Below, one piece after another: positions 3,596-64,000 of a DNA stretch of 64,000 bases (positions are counted from its first letter, which is position 1; every line of letters starts with the position of its first letter). The notes beneath the pieces are model-generated. The model worked only from the letters and a program-made list of their open reading frames with translations. It ran no database searches and was not told the DNA's origin. The DNA is from Prevotella sp. GTDB lineage: Bacteria > Bacteroidota > Bacteroidia > Bacteroidales > Dysgonomonadaceae. The stretch is from assembly GCA_031285625.1 (NCBI GenBank), contig JAITVV010000007.1:62001-126000 (forward strand), in the 5' to 3' direction. The position numbers and the translations under genes were made by a program.

Positions 3596-5044
3596 ATGAA
3601 AAAAATAAACTTATACATTCTTGCCTTCTCACTATTACTTCCTTTAATAACAAGAGCTCAGGCAATATCGCCAAGTGGAATAAAACCGGAGCAGGTACAA
3701 ATAGGAAGAAATGGAGATTATATACAAATAGGAATGAGAATTAATCTGGATAATATTGATCTTGATTCTCAGGAAATGATAGTTCTAACCCCTGTAGCAA
3801 TGTCAGAAGACAGAGTGACGATGCACACCTTTGCTCCCGTAGTTATAACAGGAACAAAAAGGAACAAGGCACTGAACCGGGCTTTAGAATTCGGATCTTA
3901 TGAATTTCCAAATCCACCACAGCAGATAGTCCCTAAAAACAGCGTACAATATATACCTTTAAATCTCAGTCTTCCATATAATCAATGGATGCATAGTGGT
4001 ATTTTGGCATTTAAGGAAGAAAGAATAGGATGTGCCTGTGAAAATGAATATATCAACAACTATGATATTGCTCAGATACTACCTCCGGTATTCAATCCGG
4101 AATATACACTATCCTATATAACACCTCCTGTAGAAGAAGTGAAAAGGAGAAGTGAAACTTATAGTGCCCGTTTAAACTTTAAAGTAAATAGGTATGAAAT
4201 ATTGCACGATTTCAAAAATAATGCACAGGTATTATCTGAGGTCGGTCAGATTATAGAAGAGGTGCGGAACGATCCTAATCTGACAGTATCCGAATTCCTG
4301 ATTACCGGATATGCATCACCGGAAGGTAATTTTCAAAGCAATATGACTCTCTCAGAAAATAGGGCAAAGTCATTTGTCAATTATCTAAGCAATACATATG
4401 CGATAGACCCTTCAACTATCAAAACGGATTGGAAAGGCGAAGATTGGGATGGATTAAGAAAAGTGGTTGCTGACCTGCATATATCAGACAGGCAAAATGT
4501 ATTGGATATCATAGATAATGAACCAGATATACTGACTCGTAAAAATAAACTAAAACAGCTGTCGGGCGGAGAAACGTATAGAATGTTACTTCAAGACTAT
4601 TACCCCCCACTTCGTAGAAATGAATATACTATTTCATACGTTGCCCGCAGCTTTAGTATAGATGAAGCTAAAGAAAAAATAAAAACAAAACCTCAGCATC
4701 TCAGCCTTAATGAAATGTATCTGGTAGCAAATTCGTATACCAAGAATAGCGAAGATTTTAAACAAGTTTTTGAAATTGCTACCCGAATATATCCGGATGA
4801 TCCAGTTGCACGATTAAATTCGGCTACATTATCCCTGGAAAACAAAGATACGAACGCTGCCATCAAACAATTGGAAACAGTAAACTTACCTGAAGCATGG
4901 AATAACCTGGGAATAGCTTATATTCAGAAAGAAGAATATGAGATGGCTAAAGTATATTTTGATAAAGCAGCTAATATGGGATTAAATACGGCAACATATA
5001 ATTCTGAGCAATTATCAAAATGGCTTGAAGCACAACAATGGTAG
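3596..5044 (+). CDS. DUF3868 / OmpA-like / TPR protein
   Basis: The 482-residue protein has a signal peptide, an N-terminal DUF3868-type region (about residues 20-170), an OmpA-like peptidoglycan-binding module (about 190-290, with an I-T-G-Y-A-S-P-E-G segment matching the family's core and a following N-R-A-K-S helix), and a C-terminal helical region with TPR-like repeats (about 370-475). It probably sits in the outer membrane or periplasm and ties the fimbrial base to peptidoglycan. It ends the cluster; a 14-bp inverted repeat follows at 5053-5088. Pairing with DUF3575 in the same operon is typical of Bacteroidota fimbrial loci. The structural role is inferred. Confidence 0.8.
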   Translation: MKKINLYILAFSLLLPLITRAQAISPSGIKPEQVQIGRNGDYIQIGMRINLDNIDLDSQEMIVLTPVAMSEDRVTMHTFAPVVITGTKRNKALNRALEFGSYEFPNPPQQIVPKNSVQYIPLNLSLPYNQWMHSGILAFKEERIGCACENEYINNYDIAQILPPVFNPEYTLSYITPPVEEVKRRSETYSARLNFKVNRYEILHDFKNNAQVLSEVGQIIEEVRNDPNLTVSEFLITGYASPEGNFQSNMTLSENRAKSFVNYLSNTYAIDPSTIKTDWKGEDWDGLRKVVADLHISDRQNVLDIIDNEPDILTRKNKLKQLSGGETYRMLLQDYYPPLRRNEYTISYVARSFSIDEAKEKIKTKPQHLSLNEMYLVANSYTKNSEDFKQVFEIATRIYPDDPVARLNSATLSLENKDTNAAIKQLETVNLPEAWNNLGIAYIQKEEYEMAKVYFDKAANMGLNTATYNSEQLSKWLEAQQW

Positions 5045-5224: not shown

Positions 5225-6073
5225 ATGAGATTAGGTTTAGATATTGGCTATAAAAGCATTAGCATGGCAATAGTCAAGAATAATGAAGTTCTGGATTTAA
5301 TTGATAAACCGATTGCGACTTCCAAAAGGGATTGCAACAGAACAATAATGGACAAAATGTTAGCATCTATTCATAGTGTTTCCAAATCCAAAATAAAAGG
5401 TATTGGTTTAAGTTTACCCTCACGGATAGACGAAAAGAAAGGTGTGATATATGATATCAGCAGTATACCCTATTGGAAAGGGATGGGTATAAAGAAAATA
5501 TTAGAAGACGAGTTTAATACCAAAGTATGGATAAATAATGACGTCAACTGCTTTATCTTAGGCGAAAAATATTATGGAATGTGTAAAGATTTCAAAGACA
5601 TTGTTTGCATCTCATTAGGTCCTAATGTGGGCGCAAGCATTATTGTGAATAATAAATTATTTTTTGAGAATAACTATACATTCTATAATGCGAAATGTTT
5701 ATCTGTTCCTTGCTATGACTGTGTACGTATATATAGAAGCAGTTTTATACGAACAATGGAGGAACTTAACTTCTTACTCAAAGGCTACAAAGATGATATG
5801 GCAGATAATCCTGATCATGAAATATGGGCTGATTTGGGAATACTGGTCGGTAGACTCGTTTCTATCCTTCTATGCAACTATGATCCTCAAGTAATAGTAT
5901 TAGGCGGTCATTTAGCTAAACATTTTGTTCATTTCTCAGAATCAATGGATAGATATCTTGAAAAATTTATTCATCCGCAAGTACTATTAAATATGATAAT
6001 TTTTGCCTCTATTGTTGATCATCAACAAGCGTTAGGCGCAACGGCAATGGTAAAACAGCAAATATTAGTATAA
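5225..6073 (+). CDS. Degenerate ROK-family protein
   Basis: The 282-residue protein has the actin-like fold signature of ROK sugar kinases and repressors: L-D-I-G-Y at the start (usual form D-I-G-G-T), I-N-N-D-V-N at 103-108 with the presumed catalytic Asp106, and a phosphate-loop-like L-G-P-N-V-G-A-S near 131. The family's zinc motif (C-x-C-G-x2-G-C) is replaced by C-L-S-V-P-C-Y-D-C around 158-166 with different spacing, and the DIGGT Thr is lost. No helix-turn-helix is present. It could be a diverged sugar kinase or a non-catalytic sensor. It stands alone, 180 bp after the fimbrial cluster. Function uncertain; family assignment fairly secure. Confidence 0.65.
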   Translation: MRLGLDIGYKSISMAIVKNNEVLDLIDKPIATSKRDCNRTIMDKMLASIHSVSKSKIKGIGLSLPSRIDEKKGVIYDISSIPYWKGMGIKKILEDEFNTKVWINNDVNCFILGEKYYGMCKDFKDIVCISLGPNVGASIIVNNKLFFENNYTFYNAKCLSVPCYDCVRIYRSSFIRTMEELNFLLKGYKDDMADNPDHEIWADLGILVGRLVSILLCNYDPQVIVLGGHLAKHFVHFSESMDRYLEKFIHPQVLLNMIIFASIVDHQQALGATAMVKQQILV

Positions 6074-10078: not shown

Positions 10079-10303
10079 ATGTCAAAAGATGATATAGGAA
10101 CTGAATCCGGAACTATTTGGTTATTACTTTCAGACAAAGGGAAATTATCTATAAGAGAAATCGGTGAATTTACAAATTGTAAGGACTCACTTATCTTTTT
10201 AGCATTAGGATGGTTATTAAGAGAAGATAAGATTCGTTTTTTTGATGAGAATGGTATTTTGTATGCTGAACTAAATAGGTGTGGATCTGAATTATATTAC
10301 TAA
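10079..10303 (+). CDS. DUF2582 winged-helix protein
   Basis: The 74-residue protein matches the DUF2582 winged-helix family: it starts near I-G-x-x-S-G-T-I-W, and has the diagnostic A-L-G-W-L-L-R-E-D-K-I segment at about 41-52. Members are small cytoplasmic proteins proposed to bind nucleic acid; no target is known. It lies 57 bp downstream of the LysM gene and is followed by a strong terminator, so it may end the plus-strand stress operon. Confidence 0.85.
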   Translation: MSKDDIGTESGTIWLLLSDKGKLSIREIGEFTNCKDSLIFLALGWLLREDKIRFFDENGILYAELNRCGSELYY

Positions 10304-11183: not shown

Positions 11184-11212
11184 AAAGCCCTGACATTTAA
11201 TATCAGGGCTTT
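11184..11212. terminator. Bidirectional terminator between convergent blocks
   Basis: A 10-bp perfect stem (11184-11193 with 11203-11212) is flanked by A-rich sequence on the left and a T-run on the right. It sits between a + strand stop at 11159 and a - strand stop at 11231 and probably serves both. Confidence 0.85.
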
Positions 11213-16951: not shown

Positions 16952-17356
16952 ATGAAAATTAAACCTTATTTGGCTTTTAATGGTAATGCAGAAGAAGCGC
17001 TAAACTTTTATGCCGGAGTATTTAACGGAACTGTCGGAGAAATCTATCGTTATGGAGAATATCAGGAAATGGAAAGCCCTGCAGAATACAAGGACAAAAT
17101 AATCCATTCCTGCCTTACCTTTAGTAGCTGTACCATCAGCATAGCAGACACAATGCCTGGCACAAAATCCGACTTCGGCTCTTTGGGGCATACAATTACA
17201 GTATTTTGCGACACAGATCAACAACTTAAAGATATTTATGCAAAATTATCTGCAAGCGGGCAAATTAAATGCGAACTTTGTGAGCCCAGCTGGGCGAAAC
17301 TATATGCTGAAATTTTAGATAAATTTGGCGTACTTTGGGCACTGATTATAGAATAA
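16952..17356 (+). CDS. VOC (PhnB-like) family protein
   Basis: The 134-residue protein has the VOC/PhnB fold pattern: I-K-P-Y-L-A-F-N-G-N-A-E-E-A start and a glyoxalase-like second half with the terminal F-G-V-L-W-A. PhnB-like proteins are often annotated as 3-demethylubiquinone methyltransferase-like, but the catalytic role is unknown. The usual metal ligands cannot be assigned with confidence. It is the first gene of an operon with a WYL regulator (40 bp later), which suggests it is a detoxification or ligand-binding protein under that regulator. Confidence 0.8.
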   Translation: MKIKPYLAFNGNAEEALNFYAGVFNGTVGEIYRYGEYQEMESPAEYKDKIIHSCLTFSSCTISIADTMPGTKSDFGSLGHTITVFCDTDQQLKDIYAKLSASGQIKCELCEPSWAKLYAEILDKFGVLWALIIE

Positions 17357-17396
17357 CAGTATGCCTCACTGATTCGGATTAAAACAATAAAGCAAA

Positions 17397-18338
17397 GTGG
17401 ATAAAGACCTAAACCGGATTGACCGCATATCGGCACTATTAGTACAATTACAATCGCGACCGATTGTAAAAGCCTCAGAAATGGCAGAACGTTTCTGTGT
17501 GAGTTTACGCACTATCTACCGGGATATGCGAACTCTATCTGAAGCCGGAGTACCTATATGCGGAAATTCGGGAATCGGTTACTCTCTGGTGGAGGGTTAC
17601 AGGTTGCCTTCACTAATGTTTACTAAAGAGGAAGCAATGGCTTTCCTCACTGCCGAAAAAATTATTGAGCAGCTAACCGATACCCAGAACAGCAATTATT
17701 TTCGTCAGGGAATGGATAAAGTCCGTGCGGCATTGCGAGGTGTGGATAAGAAATATCTCCACGATATGGATGATACTATTGCTGTGTATAAAAGCCGGAA
17801 TACAAAGGAAAGTTTACCCAACCTGCTACAAATAATATTAAGTAGTATAAACGATCGGTTAATCGTAGAGATCGACTATATAAATGCTGAAGAAAGTACC
17901 AGTAAAAGATCACTGGAAGCTGTTGGGGTTAGTTATTCACATCCCTGTTGGTATCTTGCAGCATGGTGTCATTTACGAAAAGAATACCGGATGTTCAGGC
18001 TCGATCGTATTAATAATATAAAAATAACGGGTAATGAACAAACTAGAGTGCATCCTCCTTTAGAATCACTTCTTGGATGCGATGTTTCCCAATGTTTGAT
18101 AGAGGTCGTTTTGCTAACAAGCAAAGAGGTATCCAAACGTTTTGCCGACAGGTGCCATTTTATGGGACTGACTAAAGAAAGAGAGCTTGCAAACGGTCAG
18201 ATAGAACAAACCTATATGGCCTATTCTCTCGAAGGTCTGGCAAGGTGGGTATTGGCTAATGCTGATACAACAACAGTGATTAAACCTGTTGAGATAAAAG
18301 ATATTATAAAACAAATTATTAAAAACTTAGACTTATGA
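17397..18338 (+). CDS. WYL-domain transcriptional regulator (YafY-like)
   Basis: The 313-residue protein starts at GTG and has an N-terminal winged HTH (about 8-60: A-S-E-M-A-E-R-F-C-V-S-L-R-T-I-Y-R-D-M recognition region) and a central WYL domain (about 150-225), followed by the WCX-type C-terminal extension. This is the YafY/DeoR-like WYL class of ligand-responsive regulators. The stop overlaps the next start by 4 bp (ATGA). It probably autoregulates the VOC-WYL-GyrI operon. Confidence 0.9.
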   Translation: MDKDLNRIDRISALLVQLQSRPIVKASEMAERFCVSLRTIYRDMRTLSEAGVPICGNSGIGYSLVEGYRLPSLMFTKEEAMAFLTAEKIIEQLTDTQNSNYFRQGMDKVRAALRGVDKKYLHDMDDTIAVYKSRNTKESLPNLLQIILSSINDRLIVEIDYINAEESTSKRSLEAVGVSYSHPCWYLAAWCHLRKEYRMFRLDRINNIKITGNEQTRVHPPLESLLGCDVSQCLIEVVLLTSKEVSKRFADRCHFMGLTKERELANGQIEQTYMAYSLEGLARWVLANADTTTVIKPVEIKDIIKQIIKNLDL

Positions 18339-20442: not shown

Positions 20443-20480
20443 ATCTAAAGCGGAATAGTTTTCTCTAATCCGCTTTAGAT
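20443..20480. terminator. Bidirectional terminator
   Basis: A 12-bp perfect stem (20443-20454 with 20469-20480) lies between the pseudogene's stop (20440) and the - strand hmuV stop (20501). Confidence 0.75.
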
Positions 20481-51222: not shown

Positions 51223-52299
51223 CTAATATTTCAATGGCAATGAGATTTCCAGTTTAGTGTCCTTTCCCGTATGGCAGTTCAAAACAGTCATTATTCCTTC
51301 TTTGGGAAACTGAGTCCTGACTGTCTTATTAGCTGGTAGCCTATATTCTTTATCACCTATCATTAGCGAGTAAGAAATATCTGATATATTACTAACCTCT
51401 ATATCATCTCCACCTTTTATTACTTTTATCTTGATTGATGCCAAGAATAACTTTCTTAATAATTCGTCTTTTCCTGCTAAAGTACTATTAAATAAGACTG
51501 CTGTGCGTCCGGCAAACAAGGCCTCTTTTATGCCTGCCTCCGAGTATTCCTTTGCAAATACCAAAGTAACAGGGCGAGCCAATTTCTTATTTCCATAAAG
51601 TTCAGCAATAGGCTCATGTATATCCGAGTTACCCATAAAGCTCAGATTGTATTTATTCGCATAATCGAATGTAAGCGGATAATATTCAAGATAGTTAAAA
51701 ACCTCAATACCATTTATCAGACGTTCTGCAATCAATTGTTCGTGCACAGGATAAAGAGTACTCTTATTATCAGGCCATCCCGGATGGTTCCACATAATAA
51801 AAGCGCCTTGCTTTTTCGCTTCTTTCAGAACATCTACAGGATCATCCAGTTCCAACTTATTGGCATCGTTTATAAATAAAGCATTGAGATGTCCAATCGG
51901 CTTTTCACGTGTAATTTCAGTACCTTGTATAACTATAAAATTCAGCCTGTCGCCATGTTCTTTTGCTATTTTGAAACTGGCATTAAGATCTCCGCTAAGA
52001 ATTCCTTTATAGGGACGGTACTCAATATGATCGGTAATTGCAATAGCATCAAGTCCTTCCCTCCAGGCCTCGTTTACCCGTACATCAGGCCAAACCTTAC
52101 CATCCGAGAAAACAGTATGGATATGGAAATCGCACTTGAGAACCTGATATCCATCAAAACCCGGTATGGAGATATGTTCACGAATAGAACTCTGCCCCAT
52201 TTCCGGCAATTTATATACATCATCATTCTTTATTTGTCCGAATGCAAGGAAAGGACAAGTGAGTAATATCACTCCTGCAATAATCTTATAAATATTCAT
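51223..52299 (-). CDS. Secreted PHP-domain phosphoesterase
   Basis: The 358-residue protein has a signal peptide (cleavage near A-F-G-Q) and a PHP metal-dependent domain: C-D-F-H-I-H-T-V-F-S-D-G with His59, His61 and Asp65, and I-T-D-H-I-E-Y-R-P near 95. A C-terminal beta domain follows. Export implies it acts on extracellular or periplasmic phosphate esters. It ends the PUL unit, 48 bp after the ribulokinase gene. The ATG at 52299 fits the signal peptide. Confidence 0.85.
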   Translation of the reverse strand: MNIYKIIAGVILLTCPFLAFGQIKNDDVYKLPEMGQSSIREHISIPGFDGYQVLKCDFHIHTVFSDGKVWPDVRVNEAWREGLDAIAITDHIEYRPYKGILSGDLNASFKIAKEHGDRLNFIVIQGTEITREKPIGHLNALFINDANKLELDDPVDVLKEAKKQGAFIMWNHPGWPDNKSTLYPVHEQLIAERLINGIEVFNYLEYYPLTFDYANKYNLSFMGNSDIHEPIAELYGNKKLARPVTLVFAKEYSEAGIKEALFAGRTAVLFNSTLAGKDELLRKLFLASIKIKVIKGGDDIEVSNISDISYSLMIGDKEYRLPANKTVRTQFPKEGIMTVLNCHTGKDTKLEISLPLKY

Positions 52300-52347
52300 T
52301 CCAATATTTTTTAATATTAAAAATAACACTCCTGATAAAGATAACTA

Positions 52348-54024
52348 TTAATTACCTGAGCTCTCAATAAATCCTCCTATTTTCAAATATTTTTTATATA
52401 GTTTCTCATAGATAGCATTCTTTTGTGCATCCGGATAATATTCATAAGCAAAACCTTTTCCCATAGCAGCTTGCGCATCTTCTACACATGCATATTCCGA
52501 AGCGGCTACTGCAGCAAACATAGCTGCACCCAAGGCACAAGCCTGCTCCACACCCGACACTTTTATAGGCATTCCCAAAACATCAGCCAGAGTCTGCATT
52601 ACAAATGGAGCTTTTAATGGTATACCACCAATCCCAATTACATTCTTGATTTCAACGCCCTGTGCCAAGAAACTATCAATAATGGCTTTTGAGCCAAAAG
52701 CTGTTGCTTCTACCAATGCCTTGTAAATAACCGGGGCCGAGCTACCTAATGTAAGATCTGCAATACAACCCTTTACTACCTGATTTGCAAATGGAGTGCG
52801 ACGCCCGTTCATCCAATCGAGTGCTATCGGAGAACTTTCTGATACAGGAATTTTCTGAGCTTCTTCGTTCAGATATGGTAAAATACGATCCTTAATCTGT
52901 TCTTGTAATTGCTGTTTAAATTCGCTATCAGCAATATCTAAATTTGATAGAATATCTCTCAACGGATGGTAAATAATGTTTCTGAACCAAGCATAAATGT
53001 CCCCAAAAGCTGATTGTCCAGCCTCCAGGCCTATCATTCCGGGTATAACAGAACCATCAACCTGACCGCATATTCCGGCAATAAGTTTATCTTTCATTGT
53101 ATCATAGGATGAAACCATTATATCGCAGGTAGATGTGCCTATAATACGCACAAATGCACCTTCTGATATTTGTGCACCGACAGCTCCCATATGGCAATCG
53201 AGTTCACCGACACAAATAACTACCCCTGTATGTAGCCCCAGTCTTTCTGCCCATTCATCAGTAAGTGTTCCTACAACTTTATCACTTGTATGTGTTTGCT
53301 TAAAGAGATGCCCTTTGAACAAGTCATAAAGAGGATCTAAGGTATGCAAGAATTCTGATGAAGGCAATCCTCCCCAACTTTCATTCCACATAGCTTTATG
53401 CCCTGCAGCACAACGGCTACGCAGCATATTCTCCGGATTAGTATTACCTGTGAGTAAGGCAGATATCCAATCGCAATGCTCAGTCCAACTGTATGCTTTA
53501 TCCCTTATGGAGGTATCAACCCGAAGGACATGGAGCATTTTCGCCCAAGCCCATTCCGATGAATATACTCCGCCTGAATATGATGTAAAATCGATATCCC
53601 ATTTTTTTGCTAATTCATTGATTTCTGCTGCTTCATTTATAGCTGTATGATCTTTCCACAGAACAAACATGGCATTCGGGTTATCTGCATATTCCGGTAA
53701 TAAGGCTAAAGGCAGACCATCCTTATCTAGCAGGACGGGTGTAGACCCTGTGGTATCAAACCCCATACCTATTATCTTTGGTACTATTTCTCCCGGGCAC
53801 TTTTGGAATAAATGTTTTATCACATCTTCGAGACTTTCAATATAATCCGCAGGATGCTGACGATACTGATTATTTACAGGATTACAATACAAACCCTTTC
53901 CCCAACGGTTGTAATGACTTACTGCTGAGGCTTGTTCCGTACCTGTTGTAGTATCCACAATTATCGCACGACAAGAGTCTGTACCATAATCGACCCCTAT
54001 CACATACTTCTTTTCCTTTTCCAT
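52348..54024 (-). CDS. araB: Ribulokinase (AraB-type FGGY kinase)
   Basis: The 558-residue protein closely follows E. coli-type ribulokinase: V-I-G-V-D-Y-G-T-D-S-C-R-A at the start, H-P-A-D-Y-I-E-S, G-F-D-T-T-G-S-T-P near 90, N-P-N-A-M-F-V-L-W-K-D-H and a C-terminal G-I-G-G-I-P block. It phosphorylates ribulose to ribulose-5-phosphate. No araA or araD lies nearby. It sits between a GH172 gene and the PHP gene in the PUL, so the pentulose may come from furanosyl sugars released there, such as D-arabinose isomerised to D-ribulose; that link is inferred. Confidence 0.85.
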   Translation of the reverse strand: MEKEKKYVIGVDYGTDSCRAIIVDTTTGTEQASAVSHYNRWGKGLYCNPVNNQYRQHPADYIESLEDVIKHLFQKCPGEIVPKIIGMGFDTTGSTPVLLDKDGLPLALLPEYADNPNAMFVLWKDHTAINEAAEINELAKKWDIDFTSYSGGVYSSEWAWAKMLHVLRVDTSIRDKAYSWTEHCDWISALLTGNTNPENMLRSRCAAGHKAMWNESWGGLPSSEFLHTLDPLYDLFKGHLFKQTHTSDKVVGTLTDEWAERLGLHTGVVICVGELDCHMGAVGAQISEGAFVRIIGTSTCDIMVSSYDTMKDKLIAGICGQVDGSVIPGMIGLEAGQSAFGDIYAWFRNIIYHPLRDILSNLDIADSEFKQQLQEQIKDRILPYLNEEAQKIPVSESSPIALDWMNGRRTPFANQVVKGCIADLTLGSSAPVIYKALVEATAFGSKAIIDSFLAQGVEIKNVIGIGGIPLKAPFVMQTLADVLGMPIKVSGVEQACALGAAMFAAVAASEYACVEDAQAAMGKGFAYEYYPDAQKNAIYEKLYKKYLKIGGFIESSGN

Positions 54025-54045: not shown

Positions 54046-55965
54046 TCAATAGATTCGTTCCAGATATATACAATCAAATTCAAATTCATTTCTCCCATTA
54101 TTATTTTTCACTTTTATAGATAAAGAGTTTGTTTGCGCTGTTATATCCATATTACCTATGTATTGCTTTTCATTAAATTTGTCTTCGGTACTGTATGATG
54201 ATTTATAACTACTTATTTCCTCCTGTCTCTGCCAGATAATAAAATCGCCTCCTGTTGGTTTCATATGATAAGAAAGATAAATCCTATATCTTCCTTCGGG
54301 GATATCATCCAGAAAGACTTTTATTCCTCCTTCGCTCTTCGATTGTATATTTATCCCTCTCATATAGCTTATTTGTGTATCATGAAAGGCTGAAAACTTC
54401 ATCAATTGAGGATAAAACCGATAATTATCCGGCTCGTAAACAGTACGTAGTCTTTCTTCAGGTTCAATTTGTTGCAGCAGCGGTTTTTCTGCATAATAAA
54501 AAGCAACTGAGGTATAATCTACAGGATATTTATTTCCTACAGGCCCGTGTTCCATTGCATGACATATTTCCTTTTCGAATGAAAGTTTATCCCCCAGATA
54601 AAAGCGATATCCTCCTGTACGGGCAGATTGCAAAGAATAAGACAAAGATCCATGTATAGGAAGGCTTACATCGCGATCCCATCTGTCAAGCAATGCATAC
54701 CAACCTCCATTATAATAGTCCTCAGAGCCTGTACCATGTATACGCATCTTACCATCTACGTACGTAGAATCATCCCCTTCAAAAAATTCTGTCATCTGAG
54801 GTAATAATCCTTGTGCCTGATGTATTGTACCTATATAATGCCCTTTACCTTTTACTGAAAGGAAATCATAAAACTTCCCTTCTGGAGGATTAATCTCCCT
54901 GTTCCAATTGGTATAGAGTTTTCCTTCTTCTGCCGGATTCCTAACTTCTGTTTTATAATATACTTTTACCCTGATCAAAATAGAAGGCTGCCCTTCACCC
55001 TCACGTTTTTTATATATCAACTTCATTGTAGCAGTATTGTAAGGGCTGGGAATGTAACAATAGTTTATTCCATCCTTTTTCCCCAACAAGTAGCTTCTCA
55101 TAGAAGCTTTGCCATAAGCATATCCAAAAAAATCGGCGGCAGGGGCATGGATAGCAGGAATAGTTTCATTATCCCACACAACATTCAATATTATATCTTT
55201 ATATTTACTTTCGAAATAACCGTTATCATCAATCTCGAAGCCAAGGATACGCCCCGATTGGTTTTGTGAAAAGAATATTTGTTTGCTACCGGGCTCCAGT
55301 ACAAAGCTTTCCTCCTTCACCAATATATCGTCATTAACAGGTTTTGCCAATTGTTTCCATTTCAAATCTATGGTTTTCAATATATTCTTCTCATTCTGGT
55401 CAAGATCGCCCGTGAATGTTTCCACCTTATAACCCAGAAGATTACGATACTGTATCTGATAAAACTTCATTGTTTCGCCAGAAAACATAACCTTACACGA
55501 CTTGCTATAAGGAATAGGCAAATAACAATAATATCCTCCGATCTCATTACCGCATAAGGGTTTTATGAAAGGATAGACTTTACCTGAAAATAGATCATCG
55601 AAACATATTTTTAGTCCGGCATCTTTTTGACCATCGAAATAGAATTCTATAGTATCATTAGTGGGTGTAGGTGTCCATATACGATTAATCACTCCCGGGC
55701 CTTTCAGATCAGCAAGTATGAGTTTCCCATCCTCCTTGCCAACAAAAGAATATGTACCTTCAAAGCCATCGTTATTACCTCCTGTCCGATCATAACTGGA
55801 TACTTGTTCTACAATCCCATCACGATAGCAAGGGAGTAAATTGACATTATATAGTTGTTCCAGTTCTTTGGCATAACTGAATATCCGTTCATTTTTTTGT
55901 GCATTAATTACTACCCCAAAGCTCAGTATGAATAAAACAATAAATAATCTTACCCGATGTACCAT
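54046..55965 (-). CDS. GH172 (DUF2961) glycosidase, long form
   Basis: The 639-residue protein has a signal peptide (ending I-N-A-Q) and the GH172/DUF2961 fold: G-P-G-V-I-N-R-I-W near 90-98, a jelly-roll region, and G-S-E-D-Y-Y-N-G-G-W-Y near 423-433. Known GH172 enzymes act on alpha-D-arabinofuranosides or alpha-D-fructofuranosides. A C-terminal beta domain (about 530-639) may bind carbohydrate. It lies 52 bp downstream of a second GH172 gene. Confidence 0.85.
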   Translation of the reverse strand: MVHRVRLFIVLFILSFGVVINAQKNERIFSYAKELEQLYNVNLLPCYRDGIVEQVSSYDRTGGNNDGFEGTYSFVGKEDGKLILADLKGPGVINRIWTPTPTNDTIEFYFDGQKDAGLKICFDDLFSGKVYPFIKPLCGNEIGGYYCYLPIPYSKSCKVMFSGETMKFYQIQYRNLLGYKVETFTGDLDQNEKNILKTIDLKWKQLAKPVNDDILVKEESFVLEPGSKQIFFSQNQSGRILGFEIDDNGYFESKYKDIILNVVWDNETIPAIHAPAADFFGYAYGKASMRSYLLGKKDGINYCYIPSPYNTATMKLIYKKREGEGQPSILIRVKVYYKTEVRNPAEEGKLYTNWNREINPPEGKFYDFLSVKGKGHYIGTIHQAQGLLPQMTEFFEGDDSTYVDGKMRIHGTGSEDYYNGGWYALLDRWDRDVSLPIHGSLSYSLQSARTGGYRFYLGDKLSFEKEICHAMEHGPVGNKYPVDYTSVAFYYAEKPLLQQIEPEERLRTVYEPDNYRFYPQLMKFSAFHDTQISYMRGINIQSKSEGGIKVFLDDIPEGRYRIYLSYHMKPTGGDFIIWQRQEEISSYKSSYSTEDKFNEKQYIGNMDITAQTNSLSIKVKNNNGRNEFEFDCIYLERIY

Positions 55966-56017: not shown

Positions 56018-57172
56018 TTAATGGTTCCAGCTTTTCTTTCCGGCCTTTGATTCCTGCCAAGCCTTACGCCACATATGTATATCCCAGAAATTAGTAAAAG
56101 GCATTAGCTTACGATTATTTCTATCAGGAATAGCAGGTATCATAGAAGCCTCAGTCTGATACCAATAAGCAACAGTTGCTATATCCAACTGCATATCATT
56201 GGATGTGCCATGCTCAATAGTAGCTTTCAGCGATTTTTCGAAGAAAACAGGATCAGTGATAAAGAAACGGTACACATGTGTTCTACCCAGCCAACCATTA
56301 TCCTCATTTACACGTGGGTAACCGAAAAACGGACTTTGAAAAGGTTCTTTAGGGCACCATGATGTATTAAAAAAATCTTCGGTTCCGGTTCCGACCATCG
56401 ATGGTATTTTCTCACCGTCTATATACCACATATCATCACCTTCACCATACCATGCCGGACTGGGAGAATGCACATAATAATTAAGACCGATAAAATGCCC
56501 CTCACCTTTAATATCAGCAAACACATAATTTTCTTTTCCATCTATATTGGCTACCTCATGGCCTGTTACCGGATCGCTTATAGCTTCTGTAATCTCACGG
56601 TTATACCATGCATGAAACCGCCCAAGGTCTTTATCCAGTTTGTCTACTTGCCAATAGTCCACATAGAAAAAGATATTATCTATTGTTTTATCAGTCTGGT
56701 TTTCTATCTCAATACGTGCTCCATTTGCAAAAGGCATAGCAAAATAAGAAGATAATCCTGTACCATTAGCCGGACCAGCCGACAAAGCATAAGAACTAAA
56801 GTTGTAACGCTCATCCCATCCTTGTCCGAAGAAAGGGCCGATAGGCGACTCCACGGAAGGATAATCTTTACCATCCCAATACATACGGATAATAATATCG
56901 TTCCTGTTAATCAATTCGGGTGGAGGTGCTATGGTAAACCATATATGATTGATTATTCCGGAGCCTTTTATATCACAAACTACAGCTTTCTCCCCCGGTT
57001 TTATACCAACGAGCCTGTCTCCATTAAATCCCTCTTTATCATAACTGCTGATTCTTTTTGAATAGTAGCCTTTCTTTATTTTTGCAAGATCATATGTGAC
57101 ACCATTAGACTGCTGTGCCATAATAGTAGTTGCAAAAAAACATAAGGCCAACATAATAAAATATTTTTTCAT
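56018..57172 (-). CDS. GH172 (DUF2961) glycosidase, short form
   Basis: The 384-residue protein has a signal peptide (ending I-M-A-Q) and the GH172 pattern: G-S-G-I-I-N-H-I-W near 72, G-E-G-D-D-M-W-Y-I-D-G-E near 245-257, and G-T-G-T-E-D-F-F-N near 262-270 with the catalytic Glu region. It has the usual single-domain length. With the longer GH172 beside it, two related furanosidases are expressed together. Confidence 0.85.
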   Translation of the reverse strand: MKKYFIMLALCFFATTIMAQQSNGVTYDLAKIKKGYYSKRISSYDKEGFNGDRLVGIKPGEKAVVCDIKGSGIINHIWFTIAPPPELINRNDIIIRMYWDGKDYPSVESPIGPFFGQGWDERYNFSSYALSAGPANGTGLSSYFAMPFANGARIEIENQTDKTIDNIFFYVDYWQVDKLDKDLGRFHAWYNREITEAISDPVTGHEVANIDGKENYVFADIKGEGHFIGLNYYVHSPSPAWYGEGDDMWYIDGEKIPSMVGTGTEDFFNTSWCPKEPFQSPFFGYPRVNEDNGWLGRTHVYRFFITDPVFFEKSLKATIEHGTSNDMQLDIATVAYWYQTEASMIPAIPDRNNRKLMPFTNFWDIHMWRKAWQESKAGKKSWNH

Positions 57173-57492
57173 AGATTTATCATATATTTCTGCAACAGCA
57201 ATAGTTGATTACAATTAAATGATGTTGCATTAAATGATTTTTACTTAAATAATTCTGTATCTTTAAATAGTTTTTAGCAAAAATGTCAATAAGTGGTATT
57301 TGAAGTAGATTCATTTTATACTTCTTATGACAGATTCATTCTTTTTTTAAAGCTCCCCGTTAGAGAACAGATTTTCGGGGAGCTTTCTCTTGAATAACTA
57401 AAATCCAAAACCAATAACTCAAAAGTCCCGGTATAAGTCTGTCTACTATAAGAAATATACCGGGACAGTATCAAAAAACAATCATAAGAGTA
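57173..57492. other. Intergenic with conserved module copy A
   Basis: This 320-bp gap between susD and the first GH172 gene carries copy A of a module also found upstream of susC: TTTATACTTC (57315-57324), TGACAGATTCATTCTTTTT (57328-57346) and a hairpin (57349-57386). Confidence 0.6.
57315..57386 (-). promoter_or_regulatory. PUL module copy A: conserved box plus hairpin
   Basis: The box halves at 57315-57324 and 57328-57346 are followed by an 11-bp stem (57349-57359 with 57376-57386). The 16-nt loop contains GAGAACAGA. The box and the loop sequence recur in copy B while the stem sequence differs, yet pairs. The hairpin has no U-tract after it on the - strand, so it is not a plain terminator. 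Confidence 0.65.
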
Positions 57493-59193
57493 CTATTTCC
57501 AACCTGGATTCTGTTCTAGTGCAGGATTTAGCAATATCTGCCTTGTTGGTAACGGGAACAGATAATGCTTCTGCTCAAAATTCCGCTTCGATGAAGCCTC
57601 CAACAAGATACAACCTTCAGAATCATAGTCATATTTTACGTTTTCCCATAATGGGTTTGTTTCATATTCAGTTCCTTGAAACTTAACTCCTCTAAGAGGT
57701 TCTTTTAATTCTACTTCGGCGGTTTTCCAACGACGCAAATCATCAAGTCTGTATCCTTCAAGGCTCAGTTCTATTGTACGCTCACGCCTTATTTCCGTCA
57801 GCATATCCAATCCGTATTTACTCACATGAGCATTTGTCAGATGTACCATGCTAACCCTGTCACGCAGCTTGTTTATACTTATTTTAAGTTCATCATCGGT
57901 TATTTTTCCATTTTTCTCATGCAGAGCTTCTGCATAAATCAATAATACTTCTGTATAACGGATAACCGGCCAATCCATTCCCATCGGGAAACTTATTTCT
58001 GAGACACCTTTCAGATTGCGATAACCTGTTTGTGTCCAGAAACCAAAATCTACATTGTAGATAATACCTGTACTTTCGGGATCGTCCCAATTTACATTAT
58101 ATACCGGTTGAGAAAATAGCCAAAAACGCTCAAACGGCTTCACAAAGAATATATCCATACGCGGATCACGATCCTGATATTCATCCAGCACCATATTGTA
58201 TCCTTTAAATACACTACTTGCATGCGTGATAGGAACTCCGTTCTTATCAAGATACATATCTGCCAGTTTCTTCGTAGGGCATAACTCATGAGAATGCTCA
58301 TAACGAGGAGACTCTCTTATATCCTGATCGTAACGATTGGCAAGTATAGTTTCTGACTGATCAGCTTTGGTCAACCCGGCAGGATTTGATTTAAGAGTAG
58401 ATAGAGTGAAATAATATTTATAGCTCAGATCACCCAGAACATCCCTACGATCAAATAATTTATATTCCTCCGAATCTATGACTGCCTTTGATGCATCTAC
58501 TGCTGCTGAAATAAATTTATCGGCATCACTCAATCCATGGTATTTACGCCATGTACCTTCAAACAAGCATACTCTGGCTTTAAAAGCTTGTGCAGCCCCT
58601 TTAGATACACGTCCTTTATCACCTGCACTGATATCTGATTCGAGAGGTAGATCTGTAATAGCTTCATCAAGGTCTTTTACTATAAAGTCTGCAATGGCTT
58701 CACGTGTTGCACGTGGACCATATAGATATTCCGTATCATTTAATGTTAATGTTTTATCGATCAGAGGAACGCCACCAAAACGTTTTAACAGATTAAAATA
58801 ATGGAATGCCCGGAAAAACTTAGCTTCAGCTTCATAAACTTTGATGCCACTCTTTATATCGTCAGATGCCTTATTAGCACTTTCCAGTGCATAATTAGCA
58901 TACCGGATCATCCTATACGAAAAATCCCAAGTTCCATCACCCGGCGATGGTACATAAGAACTATTACTGACGGAATTAAAACCACTTGGCTTTGTAATAT
59001 CAGACATATCATCATCAGCATTGAAGGATGGTAATTCAGGATAGAACTGGTTAAGATATAATTTAAAATCCTCAACAGTCTTAAAATACACAGCATCTGT
59101 AATCACATCCTTGGATTGGAGATCAAGACCTTTTTCACATGAAATTGTGAAAAGAGATATTAAACATATTAATAATATTTTTCGTGTTTTCAT
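57493..59193 (-). CDS. SusD/RagB-type glycan-binding lipoprotein
   Basis: The 566-residue lipoprotein (lipobox F-T-I-S-C near residue 19) has the SusD/RagB fold: A-K-F-F-R-A-F-H-Y-F-N-L near 125 and the C-terminal W-K end (A-L-E-Q-N-P-G-W-K). It caps the SusC barrel and binds the imported glycan. It lies 14 bp after susC. Confidence 0.95.
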   Translation of the reverse strand: MKTRKILLICLISLFTISCEKGLDLQSKDVITDAVYFKTVEDFKLYLNQFYPELPSFNADDDMSDITKPSGFNSVSNSSYVPSPGDGTWDFSYRMIRYANYALESANKASDDIKSGIKVYEAEAKFFRAFHYFNLLKRFGGVPLIDKTLTLNDTEYLYGPRATREAIADFIVKDLDEAITDLPLESDISAGDKGRVSKGAAQAFKARVCLFEGTWRKYHGLSDADKFISAAVDASKAVIDSEEYKLFDRRDVLGDLSYKYYFTLSTLKSNPAGLTKADQSETILANRYDQDIRESPRYEHSHELCPTKKLADMYLDKNGVPITHASSVFKGYNMVLDEYQDRDPRMDIFFVKPFERFWLFSQPVYNVNWDDPESTGIIYNVDFGFWTQTGYRNLKGVSEISFPMGMDWPVIRYTEVLLIYAEALHEKNGKITDDELKISINKLRDRVSMVHLTNAHVSKYGLDMLTEIRRERTIELSLEGYRLDDLRRWKTAEVELKEPLRGVKFQGTEYETNPLWENVKYDYDSEGCILLEASSKRNFEQKHYLFPLPTRQILLNPALEQNPGWK

Positions 59194-59207
59194 AATCTTT
59201 TCGTGTT

Positions 59208-62200
59208 TTAGAATACTACATTTATTCCTAATGAAAAAGTACGGGTGAATGGTATCAGATTTTCACTAAACGGTGCTTCAGGATCAAATCCCTTAGGAAG
59301 ATTATCAAATTCAAACAAGTTGGTACCATTTACATACGTGCGTACTTTTTCCACTCCAAATTTTCGTGTAAGGGTTTGAGGCAGAGTATATCCCAACTGT
59401 ATATCTTTCAGTCTCAGATATCTGTTGTTTACAAATTTGTAAGGGGCACTTGATTGTTGATAGTTATACCAGTGTACCCCGCCATCCTGAGTCAGACGTG
59501 GATATAATGCACCCATGTTTGTCTCTGTCCATGTATCCTGATAGAAATATTCAGAAGCTTGTTTCCATACCTCAGGACCCGCTGCATAAGTATTATTCAT
59601 TACATTCCATTTGCCTACCCCCTGGAGAAATGCTTTGAAATCAAAACCTTTCCACTCCAATTCTAAATTTATACCATATAGATAATGCTGATTACCATCA
59701 CCTTTGTAGATTATATCTCCGGAACTATCATCTCCTTCTTTATACAAATGAGGTTCTAACGTACCATCACCATCCATATCTTTAAATTTAGCATCTCCAA
59801 GTCTAAGATTTGTCGGAACACCTTTAACATTTGATAAATAGTTGTTCAGATCAGCCTCAGAGCTGATAAATCCATCAAATTCATAAAGGAAATAAGAGTT
59901 TGCAGGATAGCCTTCAATGAAAGCATTATGCCCATAACCCGGATTTCTGGCATCTTTCAGATTAACAACTTTACTTGTATTGTTACTCAAAGAGACTCCT
60001 ATGCGATAACCCAAGGCTCCTATATTATCTTTCCAGCTAATTGCAACTTCCCAACCATTAGTCCTTAGATGCGCTCCATTGATACGAGGTGCACCTGTAC
60101 CTAATACTGAAGGGAATTCCTCGGCATAGAACATACCTTTATTTTCTTTGATATAGTAATCAAAGGTTCCTCCCAAACGGTTGTCCAGTATGGAGAAATC
60201 CAGACCTCCATTATAAGAATTGATTGTTTCCCAAGTCTGATCAACAGCCGGCATACCTCCTAATGTAGCCTGCATTGACTTTGAAGGTGAATTTGAATTA
60301 CCAAAAGGGTATTGTCCACCTACATTGATATACTGATAATGATCATACAATCCGATACCAGCCTGGTTACCCAGCTGTCCCCATGATAGCCTTAGTTTCA
60401 GATAATCAATATAATTCTTTGCACCTTTAAAGAATTTCTCGTTGGAAACAATCCACGAACCTGAAACCCCAAAGAAATCTTCCCATTTGTGTCCATCCGC
60501 AAATCTGGAAGAACCATCGTTACGATAAGTCGCTTCAAGAAAATAACGGCTATCGAAATCATAGCTCAATCGGCCAAAAAAAGAAGTTATAGCCCAGTCA
60601 TTACGATATTCACTATTGAACTGCTCATTAGCATCACCAATACCCATTACCTCTAACTGGTCTGTAATAAGGTTGTAACGATGAGCACCAAAGCCACGAT
60701 TATCTAGTTCCTCATGCGAGCCTCCGGCCATTACATTGAAGCTGTGCTTATTTATATCAAAATTGTAGTTTGCATATATATTTGCCACAACATGCTCATT
60801 CCTATCATACTGAGAGGCAGCCTTAGTTTTTCCACTATACCAGTAATCGATCACATCATAGTTTAATGAACCATCCCAATGATATGTCTGGTGCCTCTTT
60901 CGAGAGTAGCTCTCATCACGAATATCATAATTCATAGAAAGGTCACCTGTTATAGTCAGGTTTTTAATAGGTGTCAGGTCGAAACCTAATTGAGTGTAAT
61001 ATGAATAATATGTTTTGTTTGTATTGCCTATATGATTAGCAAAAGCTATTGGGTTACCAAAACCACCGGAAGCATAGTATTCACCACGATCATTATATGT
61101 AGGCTGGCAATTCCATGTCCAGTAAGTTAACCATGCAAGCTGATTAATATCGTAAGGTTCTACAACTTTTTTACGACCTACGCAAACATTAGAGCGGAAT
61201 TTCAGGTATTTGTTAATTTCAAAATCATATTTGAACCGTGCAGAATATTTCTTATTTGAATGATCTCCATATTGGAACATAGAACTCTGGTCTAAATACC
61301 CCAGGGATACATAATAATTTGATTTTTCGGTTTTTCCTGAGATAGTAAGATTGTGAGAATGGTCGAATGCTGTTCCGTACATTTCATCCCACCAATCATG
61401 ATTACCAAGTACAAGATCGGGAGTATCACCAAATGGGCCCTTTACAACCAACGGATTTTTTGCATTAAGGTCTGCCGTATTGATATATTGTACCAAATGA
61501 GAGAAAAAATGAGTTGCGATACCATCATTTGTATATGCCTGATTCATCATATCGATGTGTTGCAGTACGTTTACTTTACGAGGAACCCGCGCCGGCTTAT
61601 TGAAAGAGAAATCACCGGAATAACTGATTGTTGGTCTTTCACTCCGACCCTTCTTTGTGGTAACCAGTATAACACCTCCGGCAGCACGGGCACCATATAT
61701 AGCAGCCTGCGCATCTTTGAGGATAGTCATACTCTCTATATCCTGAGGGTTGATTTTATTTAATGCAGAAGCATTATTATCTTTATAAGGAATACCATCT
61801 ACAACAACCAATATACCCGGATCGGCACGGGATGTAACTCCACGAATCTGAATATCAAAACCTTCTTCTCCAATTTTCCCGGGATTATTTCTCCTTATTT
61901 CCATTCCGGGAACAACCCCTTGCAAGAATGAAGCAGTATTAGTCATCGGCCTGTTTTCGAATTGTTTTTTGTCAACAACATCTACCGCACCGGTAGTCGT
62001 TGCCCTGGTTTTAACACCATATCCGATGGCTACTATCTCCTGAAGCATAATTGCATCTTCTTTCAGATCGAGATCAATTGTTGTCCTACCTTTTACTTCT
62101 ACTTCTTCGGATCTCATCCCCATAAAAGAGAAAACCAGTATATCTGTTCCAGCAGGCATATTTATAGCATATTTACCATCTACATCGGATAGTACACCAA

Positions 62201-62363
62201 CAGTTGTTCCTTTCACAACAACGGAAACGCCAGGCATTGTGTTTCCTTGCACATCTTTGATTATTCCGCTAACAGTTCTTGCATTCTGGGCATACATTGT
62301 CCCCACAGAGACAAGGCATAAAGCAAGAAACAGCATGGATATTCTTACAGATATTAATTTCAT
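59208..62363 (-). CDS. SusC/RagA-type TonB-dependent transporter
   Basis: The 1051-residue protein has a signal peptide, a carboxypeptidase-D-like regulatory domain (about 28-110), the SusC linker motif I-G-Y-G-V-K-T-R and plug domain (about 115-235), and a long beta-barrel ending F-S-L-G-I-N-V-V-F. It imports oligosaccharides across the outer membrane with SusD. A -7 box lies at 62396-62403. Confidence 0.95.
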   Translation of the reverse strand: MKLISVRISMLFLALCLVSVGTMYAQNARTVSGIIKDVQGNTMPGVSVVVKGTTVGVLSDVDGKYAINMPAGTDILVFSFMGMRSEEVEVKGRTTIDLDLKEDAIMLQEIVAIGYGVKTRATTTGAVDVVDKKQFENRPMTNTASFLQGVVPGMEIRRNNPGKIGEEGFDIQIRGVTSRADPGILVVVDGIPYKDNNASALNKINPQDIESMTILKDAQAAIYGARAAGGVILVTTKKGRSERPTISYSGDFSFNKPARVPRKVNVLQHIDMMNQAYTNDGIATHFFSHLVQYINTADLNAKNPLVVKGPFGDTPDLVLGNHDWWDEMYGTAFDHSHNLTISGKTEKSNYYVSLGYLDQSSMFQYGDHSNKKYSARFKYDFEINKYLKFRSNVCVGRKKVVEPYDINQLAWLTYWTWNCQPTYNDRGEYYASGGFGNPIAFANHIGNTNKTYYSYYTQLGFDLTPIKNLTITGDLSMNYDIRDESYSRKRHQTYHWDGSLNYDVIDYWYSGKTKAASQYDRNEHVVANIYANYNFDINKHSFNVMAGGSHEELDNRGFGAHRYNLITDQLEVMGIGDANEQFNSEYRNDWAITSFFGRLSYDFDSRYFLEATYRNDGSSRFADGHKWEDFFGVSGSWIVSNEKFFKGAKNYIDYLKLRLSWGQLGNQAGIGLYDHYQYINVGGQYPFGNSNSPSKSMQATLGGMPAVDQTWETINSYNGGLDFSILDNRLGGTFDYYIKENKGMFYAEEFPSVLGTGAPRINGAHLRTNGWEVAISWKDNIGALGYRIGVSLSNNTSKVVNLKDARNPGYGHNAFIEGYPANSYFLYEFDGFISSEADLNNYLSNVKGVPTNLRLGDAKFKDMDGDGTLEPHLYKEGDDSSGDIIYKGDGNQHYLYGINLELEWKGFDFKAFLQGVGKWNVMNNTYAAGPEVWKQASEYFYQDTWTETNMGALYPRLTQDGGVHWYNYQQSSAPYKFVNNRYLRLKDIQLGYTLPQTLTRKFGVEKVRTYVNGTNLFEFDNLPKGFDPEAPFSENLIPFTRTFSLGINVVF

Positions 62364-62395
62364 AGTTTTTTGATTTAATTGTAACTTTTTATCTA

Positions 62396-62403
62396 CAAAC
62401 CTA
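62396..62403 (-). promoter_or_regulatory. susC -7 box
   Basis: TAGGTTTG on the - strand matches TAnnTTTG and gives a leader of about 26 nt. It equals the box at the three-paralogue operon. No TTTG at the -33 position. Confidence 0.5.
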
Positions 62404-62621
62404 TTTTTTGTCCATCCAAGTATAACTGATAGTTATGACTTTAAAATGTGACATCATTATTAGCGTTTACTTATCTATTTATCAAAGTACATTTCATTTT
62501 ATTCTTCGAATAAAGAATTTCAAGTGTGGTTATTAATTTTCAGTTTGTATGCCTGTGAAAATATTTTTTATTAGTATTTGTCAATAAGAATTATTTATAA
62601 ACAGACCGGCATTTTTCTGTC

Positions 62622-62707
62622 TTTATACTTCGTTTTTGACAGATTCATTCTTTTTCGCCTTTCTTTAAAACTGCTTCCCATACGAGAACAGAAGTATGGG
62701 AAGCAGT
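62622..62707 (-). promoter_or_regulatory. PUL module copy B: conserved box plus hairpin
   Basis: TTTATACTTC (62622-62631) and TGACAGATTCATTCTTTTT (62637-62655) are followed by a 14-bp perfect stem (62670-62683 with 62694-62707) whose 10-nt loop contains GAGAACAGA. The GH116 stop lies 13 bp away. Confidence 0.65.
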
Positions 62708-62720
62708 CATTCACCTAAGT

Positions 62721-64000
62721 TTACAGAAAAACAACCTTAATTTTATCTCCTGTTTTTAAATTCAATTTATCAAATGATATATCTATCTGATCATTTACAT
62801 CAAATGTTGCTGGTATCACTTTATCATTGCAGAATACTTCTACCTTTTGCGGTGTAAATCCGGCAGGAACCGAAAGCTTTACTTTCTGCAGGGCAAGCCT
62901 GCCATGTTTTACTTCAATAGTATTCTGTTGATTACGTCCTTCTCCGGTTTGGGAGATATTACCCCATCCTTCTGCTGCCGTAAAGAATCCTCTGAATTTA
63001 TTTGAAATCAGCTTCGGAGAGAAGCTCATAACTCCTTTAGGACCATCGTACCAATAATTTTGAATAGCATTAAGAACTCCATACGATGCCATTGCACGTG
63101 CATAATGATCACCGCACTCAATTTCGTTCCATGGATTATGTTTGGCTCCATCATAACGTGAATGCACAGCTTTCACTATGGCAAGGCCTTCATCAACCAT
63201 ACCTCTCAATATCATATTGGTAGCTACCTGATATTCAATACCTGTCCATACCTCATCACGATACCTGACACCAGCCTCGCCCGGATGTTTACTGTGCGGC
63301 CATGTACAGATCAGTAATCCCGGTTCGCCTGAATGAGCATAATATCTTTCCGGAAGGTGTGCTTCTGTCTGAGGCCCCACATCATTTGTCCAGTTATACT
63401 TCCACACCGAACGCAGTGCTTTATCAATTGCATCATTCGGATACAGATCACCGAGCCTTAACAGATCTGCCCATGTTTGTCCAAATAACTGATCGCTAAG
63501 ACATCCTTTTCCATACTGATGCTCCGGATATTCCTTTTCATCTACATCCTGTATAAAGTATTCACCATTCCACAAACGATCCATTGTATTGTCAGATCCG
63601 GCAGTATATATCTTCTTGTAACGTTCAGCAGCTGTTGTGTCATTCATTATCATAGCCATCTTCTCTCCTGCACGCAATGCTGCCAGATACAGTGCGCCCA
63701 CATAGGTGTTGGCTCCATGAAATGAAATATCATATGTATTCGGTTGCTTCTTTACAATGAGACCATCTTCATTCCCATCTTCACGAATAATATATTCCAA
63801 TGATTTCTTTATTTTAGCCCAGTTACGGGATAAAAAGAAATTATCTTTCGACATCAGATGCTCACGATACATACGCAGTATAACACTCGCATGTCCGTCT
63901 ATGAGTATACCGTGCTCGCCATTGCGTGAGAGAATTCCTCCATCCGGTTGGAGAGATACACTGTAATCGGTTTTTTCGCGTAAGTTCCGTTCCAGTTCAG
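62721..64000 (-). CDS. GH116-type glycosidase, N-terminus beyond the window
   Basis: The frame is open to the right edge; about 425 residues are visible. The GH116 (DUF608/GBA2-like) catalytic-domain signatures are present: I-D-G-H-A-S-V, D-E-V-W-T-G-I-E-Y-Q-V-A and W-N-E-I-E-C-G-D-H-Y-A-R-A-M. A C-terminal beta domain ends the protein. GH116 enzymes include beta-glucosidases and beta-xylosidases. Substrate here is unknown. It precedes susC in the same orientation and is probably part of the PUL. Confidence 0.85.
   Translation of the reverse strand, partial: ELERNLREKTDYSVSLQPDGGILSRNGEHGILIDGHASVILRMYREHLMSKDNFFLSRNWAKIKKSLEYIIREDGNEDGLIVKKQPNTYDISFHGANTYVGALYLAALRAGEKMAMIMNDTTAAERYKKIYTAGSDNTMDRLWNGEYFIQDVDEKEYPEHQYGKGCLSDQLFGQTWADLLRLGDLYPNDAIDKALRSVWKYNWTNDVGPQTEAHLPERYYAHSGEPGLLICTWPHSKHPGEAGVRYRDEVWTGIEYQVATNMILRGMVDEGLAIVKAVHSRYDGAKHNPWNEIECGDHYARAMASYGVLNAIQNYWYDGPKGVMSFSPKLISNKFRGFFTAAEGWGNISQTGEGRNQQNTIEVKHGRLALQKVKLSVPAGFTPQKVEVFCNDKVIPATFDVNDQIDISFDKLNLKTGDKIKVVFL

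Follow-up and report, generated by a model that had tools for sequence, protein, structure and literature searches.

A hairpin and split-box module repeated at two gene boundaries of a probable D-arabinan-type utilization locus

Introduction

D-Arabinan is a polymer of mycobacterial cell walls. GH172 and GH116 enzymes act as exo-D-arabinofuranosidases in characterised D-arabinan systems, and among the carbohydrate-active proteins of Dysgonomonas gadei on D-arabinan a predicted fucose isomerase ranked first in abundance, according to the available text of the two reports (PMC10509167, PMC10115798). In Bacteroides, locus-specific operators located before susC and other units were predicted for 16 HTCS and four SusR-like regulators. 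As given in the available part of that study, the predicted operators are direct repeats, those of the HTCS regulators being on average 21 bp apart and those of the SusR-like regulators 67 or 77 bp (PMC3878776).

Here we analyze a non-coding module present in two copies, A and B, on a contig of a Prevotella sp. assembly (GCA_031285625.1). The window, that is the whole stretch of DNA analyzed, comprises 64,000 nucleotides. All genes around the copies lie on the minus strand, in the order GH116, copy B, susC, susD, copy A, GH172, GH172, FGGY kinase and PHP-domain protein (Table 1). Further up the contig, in the same direction, follow genes for an L-fucose isomerase, a DUF6786 protein, a second GH116, an MFS transporter and a LacI-type regulator. 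Since GH172 and GH116 activities and an abundant fucose isomerase are found in the D-arabinan systems, the locus is probably of the D-arabinan type, the substrate being judged from gene content.

Results

Two gene boundaries share a split box

A preliminary description had proposed a module that occurs twice, at gene boundaries of the locus, with a two-part conserved box in A (57315-57386) and B (62622-62707) and a regulator site as one component. The first two proposals were confirmed. Each copy is situated between a stop codon and the next start, and A and B flank susC-susD exactly, in the same orientation. On the minus strand, the box with its spacer reads AAAAAGAATGAATCTGTCA-TAA-GAAGTATAAA in A and AAAAAGAATGAATCTGTCA-AAAAC-GAAGTATAAA in B, a split element of 32-34 bp with 29 identical bases. 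The local score of the match is 51 and was reached by 0 of 500 shuffles (shuffle maximum 32). As to the third proposal, the sequence supports a putative regulator-like box.

Table 1. Coordinates of the module copies and of the surrounding genes in the window
Feature	Position	Strand	Description	Remark
Copy A box	57315..57346	-	AAAAAGAATGAATCTGTCA, 3 bp, GAAGTATAAA read on the minus strand; plus-strand letters TTTATACTTC (57315-57324), 3-bp spacer, TGACAGATTCATTCTTTTT (57328-57346)	One of two exact matches in the genome
Copy B box	62622..62655	-	Same two elements, 5 bp apart; plus-strand letters TTTATACTTC (62622-62631), 5-bp spacer, TGACAGATTCATTCTTTTT (62637-62655)	Direct reading and genome search
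Copy A hairpin	57349..57386	-	11 pairs, arms 57349-57359/57376-57386, 16-nt loop 57360-57375, shared 9-mer 57363-57371	No U-tract
Copy B hairpin	62670..62707	-	14 pairs, arms 62670-62683/62694-62707, 10-nt loop 62684-62693, shared 9-mer 62684-62692	Tail TTTAAAG
Copy A promoter-like block	57265..57293	-	CTTATTGACA ... TATTT, 21 nt after box	Aligned with B block
Copy B promoter-like block	62559..62588	-	CTTATTGACA ... TATTT, 33 nt after box	Aligned with A block
Hairpin after susD	57425..57466	-	Separate hairpin, tail TTTTGAG	Outside the repeated module
GH116	62721..64000	-	3' part of the gene in the window	1031 codons when extended into contig neighbour L136
susC	59208..62363	-	TonB-linked outer-membrane transporter	
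susD	57493..59193	-	Surface glycan-binding protein	
GH172	56018..57172	-	DUF2961, first gene after copy A	
Second GH172	54046..55965	-	DUF2961	
FGGY kinase	52348..54024	-	Best NCBIfam model is ribulokinase	
PHP-domain protein	51223..52329	-	Last gene of the row	

The likeness of the two copies ends soon after the box. The match between the promoter-like blocks is not significant alone (260 of 1000 shuffles), and beyond these blocks no similarity is detected, the score there being reached in 785 of 1000 shuffles. From box B to the susC start the distance is 258 nt. As far as the alignment tells, the module common to both spans about 100 bp. Both copies are old, the box and the loop having persisted where the remainder drifted past recognition.

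The susC-susD block enclosed by the copies is probably foreign, because its susC matches the susC genes adjoining the related loci of G007, G010, G015, G041 and G092 at only 27-30% and its susD reaches 47% with the best match in the family, compared with 67% for the best found anywhere. The latter is L027 (susC part 64%), followed by L028 with 53%. Together with the paired module around it, the block looks particular to this lineage. In L027, the closest susD relative, the long stretch between susD and the next gene (3930-4440) gives the impression of a broken-gene remnant. L028 carries a tandem repeat of about 21 bp (GTTGTCGACGGAAACTCAATT) after susD, up to the contig end (8020-8240).

Gaps were compared within and between 21 susCD stretches of the same genome, i.e. 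the locus in the window and 20 others, which together hold 22 of the 51 SusD places. A and B gave the highest of 276 within-stretch scores. A score of at least 36 was obtained in three of these comparisons: A/B, one in L176 and one in L191, the last of which looks like a dispersed repeat. Between stretches, 37 of 5726 comparisons scored at least 36, likely because of dispersed repeats; the 99.9th percentile was 55 and the maximum 107, so that a score of 51 is not unique genome-wide. The L176 match is an inverted block of 47 columns common to two gaps (2730-2990 and 5502-5601; score 41), perhaps a paired operator. A dispersed inverted repeat, GTCATTCTGAATG..GAAGAATCTC, occurs in several gaps of the genome, namely in L191, L193 and L136:2700-3060 (minus strand), upstream of the GH116 gene adjoining copy B. 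We take it to resemble a widespread intergenic repeat of the Bacteroidota.

The box differs from the operator types compared

The LacI-type front of the locus carries palindromes. Upstream of lacI we found the palindromes TTAAACGTTTTA and TGAATCGATTAA, and upstream of the MFS gene the palindrome TTAATCGTTTAA (L136:11168-11236 and 10080-10091), a candidate D-arabinose regulon; kin of the motif occur upstream of lacI and fucI in the relative G041 (L214). In copy A, no LacI-type palindrome near TTAATCGATTAA was found within three mismatches, and the box is not the LacI-type operator of the locus. Copy B contains a single match with three mismatches and one match to TAAACGTTTA with two, both far from the box. 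The box precedes two units that have no good LacI-type operator, and the simplest account would be that A and B are the targets of another regulator dedicated to them.

The copies were also compared with the direct repeats predicted for Bacteroides. At 10 of 12 matches, a threshold that misses weaker repeats, neither A nor B contains an HTCS-type tandem repeat at 21 bp, and B has no repeat at any offset from 8 to 89. In A, AATGAATCT occurs twice, 25 bp apart. No SusR-like site pair at 67 or 77 bp is common to A and B; one 67-bp repeat match in A is located outside the conserved parts. The regulators among 24 scanned proteins of the window and L136 were of the LacI, AraC and MarR types; none was an HTCS. 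An Rfam scan of the window at gathering thresholds returned no match.

The hairpins are related and their pairing is kept

In copy B, the minus strand reads from the GH116 stop codon through 13 nt into the hairpin ACTGCTTCCCATAC-ttctgttctc-GTATGGGAAGCAGT, followed by TTTAAAGAAAGGCG and the box. In copy A, the susD stop codon is followed by another hairpin and then, at 106 nt, by the hairpin AAAGCTCCCCG-aaaatctgttctctaa-CGGGGAGCTTT, AA and the box. The intervening hairpin (Table 1) is probably a weak terminator or the 3'-end hairpin of susCD. A hairpin was found shortly after susD in six of the seven best susD relatives (of 79 loci), with unrelated sequence; a 3'-end hairpin is thus normal at this place. 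A box-like string beside the susD hairpin of L032 was rejected, being in the opposite orientation with 16 bits and an E-value of 0.64.

Both hairpins of the module are stable, with minus-strand folding energies of -18.8 (A) and -24.7 kcal/mol (B), and 0 of 200 shuffles were as good for either. The stems had been described as different in sequence yet perfectly paired. The perfect pairing holds, with 11 and 14 pairs; the stems themselves turned out to be related, as the hairpins align without gaps and 26 of 39 positions are identical. Copy B has seven of the 11 A pairs in identical form, the other four being changed on both sides. Counted by the 14-pair structure of B, five pairs are changed on both sides, in addition to two that A does not form. 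When the pairing was controlled by shuffling, 13 of 500 shuffles reached the observed values, which is a weak control with only two sequences. When eight random substitutions were placed in the arms of A, all 11 pairs stayed standard in 45 of 200000 simulations. For the hairpin and loop part upstream of the box alone, the A-B match score was reached by 21 of 1000 shuffles.

Pairing kept despite changed stems agrees with the preliminary claim of a structured RNA under selection, but two sequences cannot separate selection from repair of the arms by template switching, which is a described route to apparent compensatory changes and keeps stems perfect (available text of PMC8794818). The structured-RNA interpretation is accordingly possible rather than established.

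It had further been stated that no U-tract follows either hairpin and that a plain terminator is unlikely. As expected of an intrinsic terminator, a stable stem is present shortly past the upstream stop codon. Hairpin A has TTT only within the stem base, then AAAAAAA, and lacks a U-tract, and here the statement is right. Hairpin B has TTT directly behind the stem, a weak U-tract, so that the statement is nearly right. The 8-nt tail contains no T in A and three in B (TTTAAAGA), the median being four over 47 oriented gap hairpins, two of which had cut tails counted as 0. Calling a plain terminator unlikely is therefore fair for A, whereas B may be one. A terminator scan lists neither hairpin, and its loop limit of 8 excludes both anyway.

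The loops contain a common 9-mer, as had been described, which reads GAGAACAGA and on the transcribed strand TCTGTTCTC. When pairs of random loops of these lengths (16 and 10 nt) were drawn with an assumed composition, a common 9-mer arose in 35 of 200000 cases. Among 38 hairpins with at least nine pairs and loops of 8-22 nt in 381,519 bases of the genome, no other pair of loops shares nine bases. Since a terminator needs no fixed loop, reading the hairpins as terminators leaves this identity unexplained. Recognition as RNA, a repeated DNA word, and a leftover combined with template-switch repair remain as explanations, between which two sequences cannot decide. A third hairpin with 12 perfect pairs (window 20443-20480) shares TTAGAGAA, eight bases, with the loop of A on the opposite strand and was judged a chance match. 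In the relative G010, a hairpin upstream of GH116 (L207:11421-11641) is directly followed by TCTGTTCTGG, which equals eight bases of the loop word.

Further copies were searched for in the genome and in relatives

The split box has two matches in the genome, A and B. Its 19-mer, allowing up to three mismatches, gave 14 matches, two of them A and B; three of the remaining 12 were examined in context and lack the second box element. Visual inspection of the flanks of the 16 matches to the 10-mer of loop B showed a hairpin loop only in copy B itself. A covariance model built from A and B (R1) found as its next match in the genome a hit with 19 bits and an E-value of 2.6. With two genomic copies, the module does not behave as a REP-like or otherwise dispersed repeat, which would occur in many copies.

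A shortened exact split box, searched in 101 genomes of the family, matched once each in G090 and G095 besides A and B; both matches are inside open reading frames and were rejected as coding chance matches. The longer split box matched only A and B in 395 genomes of the class and was absent from the other 394 genomes; none was found in viral contigs. In 295 genomes of the order, R1 gave ten matches beyond the own genome at E-values of 0.001-0.01, where about three are expected by these rough values; strict filters were used and 15 candidates were scored per genome. None is credible, and all ten were rejected for lacking the loop word. In nine genomes with related loci the best E-value was 0.03. 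Among 32 related loci, the best match (20.7 bits, E-value 0.044) lies directly upstream of GH172 in G007 and was rejected as a copy, as the hairpin there has neither loop word nor box. By titles and the beginnings of abstracts, no earlier description of such a hairpin and box module was found in the literature covered, most subscription papers lying outside it.

No further credible copy thus exists in the sets searched, an outcome for which the preliminary description had foreseen chance or recent duplication. Chance is unlikely in view of the box shuffles, and recent duplication is unlikely in view of the divergence between A and B. What the data show is an old duplication.

A related locus has a block of its own

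G010 has a D-arabinan-type locus with genes for LacI, MFS, GH116, DUF6786, GH172, fucose isomerase and kinase. G007 has the same set minus GH116, and the G015 stretch holds a part. The module is absent from the loci of these same-genus relatives, where the best gap score against A or B was 34. In G007, the gaps before GH172 (L208:10892-11124) and before susC (17217-17540) are the exact counterparts of A and B. They share an ungapped block of 28 columns in the same orientation (21 identical, score 31), reached by 2 of 1000 shuffles, a figure for this pair alone, which was picked among all gap pairs of seven stretches. The block ends in the identical run TATAGAGATTTTT and is unlike the A/B box. 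The hairpins here have no loop in common, and the one before GH172 comes after the block. The counterpart gaps of G010 share no block (scores 13-17); the gaps before GH172 in G092 and G041 are too short to compare, and the G015 stretch does not include that GH172. A locus-private block common to both gaps is hence found in one of two comparable relatives (G007, not G010), which favours an operator role for the box but lends no support to a general role of the shared-loop hairpin.

Discussion

The most likely account, which we consider slightly more probable than not, is an operon-junction module, composed of a 3'-end hairpin and a locus-specific operator, of which A and B would be two old copies. 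They resemble a matched pair of boundaries, each of which would end one transcript and govern the following one. In the arrangement we infer, regulator binding, promoter position, transcript ends and the roles of hairpin and loop all being predicted, the transcribed strand presents a stable hairpin behind the upstream gene and then the split box. The hairpin would protect or end the upstream transcript. The box would be a putative operator for a dedicated regulator of the next unit, B governing susC-susD and A governing GH172-GH172-kinase-PHP, and may allow joint switching of both downstream units, separately from the LacI-type front of the locus. In favour of an operon-junction module are the identical positions of the box set against the absence of likeness past the promoter-like block. 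Against it, no regulator for the box was found among the 24 proteins scanned, and the box halves are 3 bp apart in A versus 5 bp in B. The missing tandem repeat, the promoter-like block that is not significant alone, the distance of box B from susC, the gaps of G010 and the fixed loop also weigh against it. The block of G007 raised our estimate from an even chance to a little above it, and slightly lowered those for the two main alternatives and for a clustered operator, discussed below.

One alternative, close to the preliminary view, is a structured RNA in which a protein or small RNA would recognise the hairpin with its loop UCUGUUCUC and control how the upstream mRNA is processed or how stable it is, while the box would be part of the RNA element or a separate site. 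The loop word is identical while 13 of the 30 remaining aligned hairpin positions differ, and this speaks for a structured RNA, as do the pairs changed on both sides (four of 11) and the missing U-tract of hairpin A. Only two copies are known, however, with no Rfam match at gathering thresholds; the ten weak model matches in the order (E-values up to 0.01) lack the loop word, and the box folds into little structure. We consider this alternative unlikely.

The second main alternative is a plain old segmental duplication, in which terminator and promoter region were copied as susC-susD entered or was rearranged, the arms were repaired by template switching and the loop is a leftover. The copies flank susC-susD exactly, this block is probably foreign, and template switching can keep stems perfect (available text of PMC8794818). 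However, with no homology past the promoter-like block (785 of 1000 shuffles), 29 box bases and nine loop bases would need selection, and we regard a mere duplication as improbable.

A combination of RNA and DNA recognition is conceivable but doubtful. One factor would read the UCUGUUCUC loop hairpins as RNA and act on the adjoining box, so that ending or stabilising one unit is tied to starting the next, a switch pair private to the locus.

Loop and box might instead carry one DNA word, TCTGT(C/T), as a clustered operator, the dyad being incidental or also a terminator. On either strand, TCTGT occurs four times per gap, i.e. 12.5 (A) and 11.2 (B) per kb against 2.42 over 61 gaps including A and B, and the A and B gaps are the fourth and third densest for TCTGTY. 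The distances from loop to box (37 bp in A, 49 in B) and from box to block (21 and 33 bp) are each greater in B by 12 bp, which is close to one helical turn. The pattern was noticed after the fact, though, loop (TCTGTTCTC) and box (TCTGTCA) have five bases in common, and the other two TCTGT per gap are at non-matching places, so that we hold a clustered operator to be very unlikely. Ends of a mobile or recombining cassette, for which direct repeats in the same orientation exactly flanking susC-susD might be taken, are scarcely credible, as the genes between are susC and susD, with no recombinase, and there are no further genomic copies.

Other candidates were discarded. A small peptide encoded in the box, M-N-L-S-stop in A and longer in B, is not kept. 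A pseudoknot of the loop with AGAAUG of the box would have six weak pairs and, in A, a short linker, as judged from typical geometry. A small RNA on the plus strand would have no U-tract after the hairpin.

If the operon-junction reading is true, the box would be the likely operator controlling uptake and degradation in a D-arabinan-type locus, and the genome would contain a pair in which hairpin arms changed together and loop and box stayed constant. A direct question would then be if the 3'-end hairpins of these loci, besides terminating transcripts, also encode information in their sequence. Should the reading be wrong, the pair would be a clear case of an old duplicated gene boundary imitating RNA covariation.

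Among known systems, the FopS and GibS small RNAs of Bacteroides are also non-coding and act on susC units, and one FopS member derives from a 3' UTR; they differ in being small RNAs with a 5' seed and a 3' terminator, FopS having 14 copies in one genome, according to the available text (PMC11697453, PMC7366714). A and B have no match in Rfam, a set which may not include FopS. With intrinsic terminators and 3'-end hairpins after susD, the module has in common a perfect, GC-rich stem past a stop codon; the closing pairs AAAG...CTTT of A are also present in a hairpin at 11184. It differs from terminators in that A lacks a U-tract and that of B is weak, in the loop kept between the copies and in the attached box. 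PUL42 of D. gadei likewise contains GH172 genes, a fucose isomerase and a putative GH116, and the available text mentions no hairpin or box (PMC10115798, PMC10509167); compared with PUL42, no DUF4185/GH183 is among the 24 proteins scanned here. The operators predicted for HTCS and SusR-like regulators are set apart by their direct repeats, A and B having none in common, and by the HTCS regulators themselves, absent from those 24 proteins. Like A and B, they are boxes before susC and other locus units, and the split motifs of HTCS regulators, at about 33-37 bp in the available part of the study, resemble the box in build (PMC3878776).
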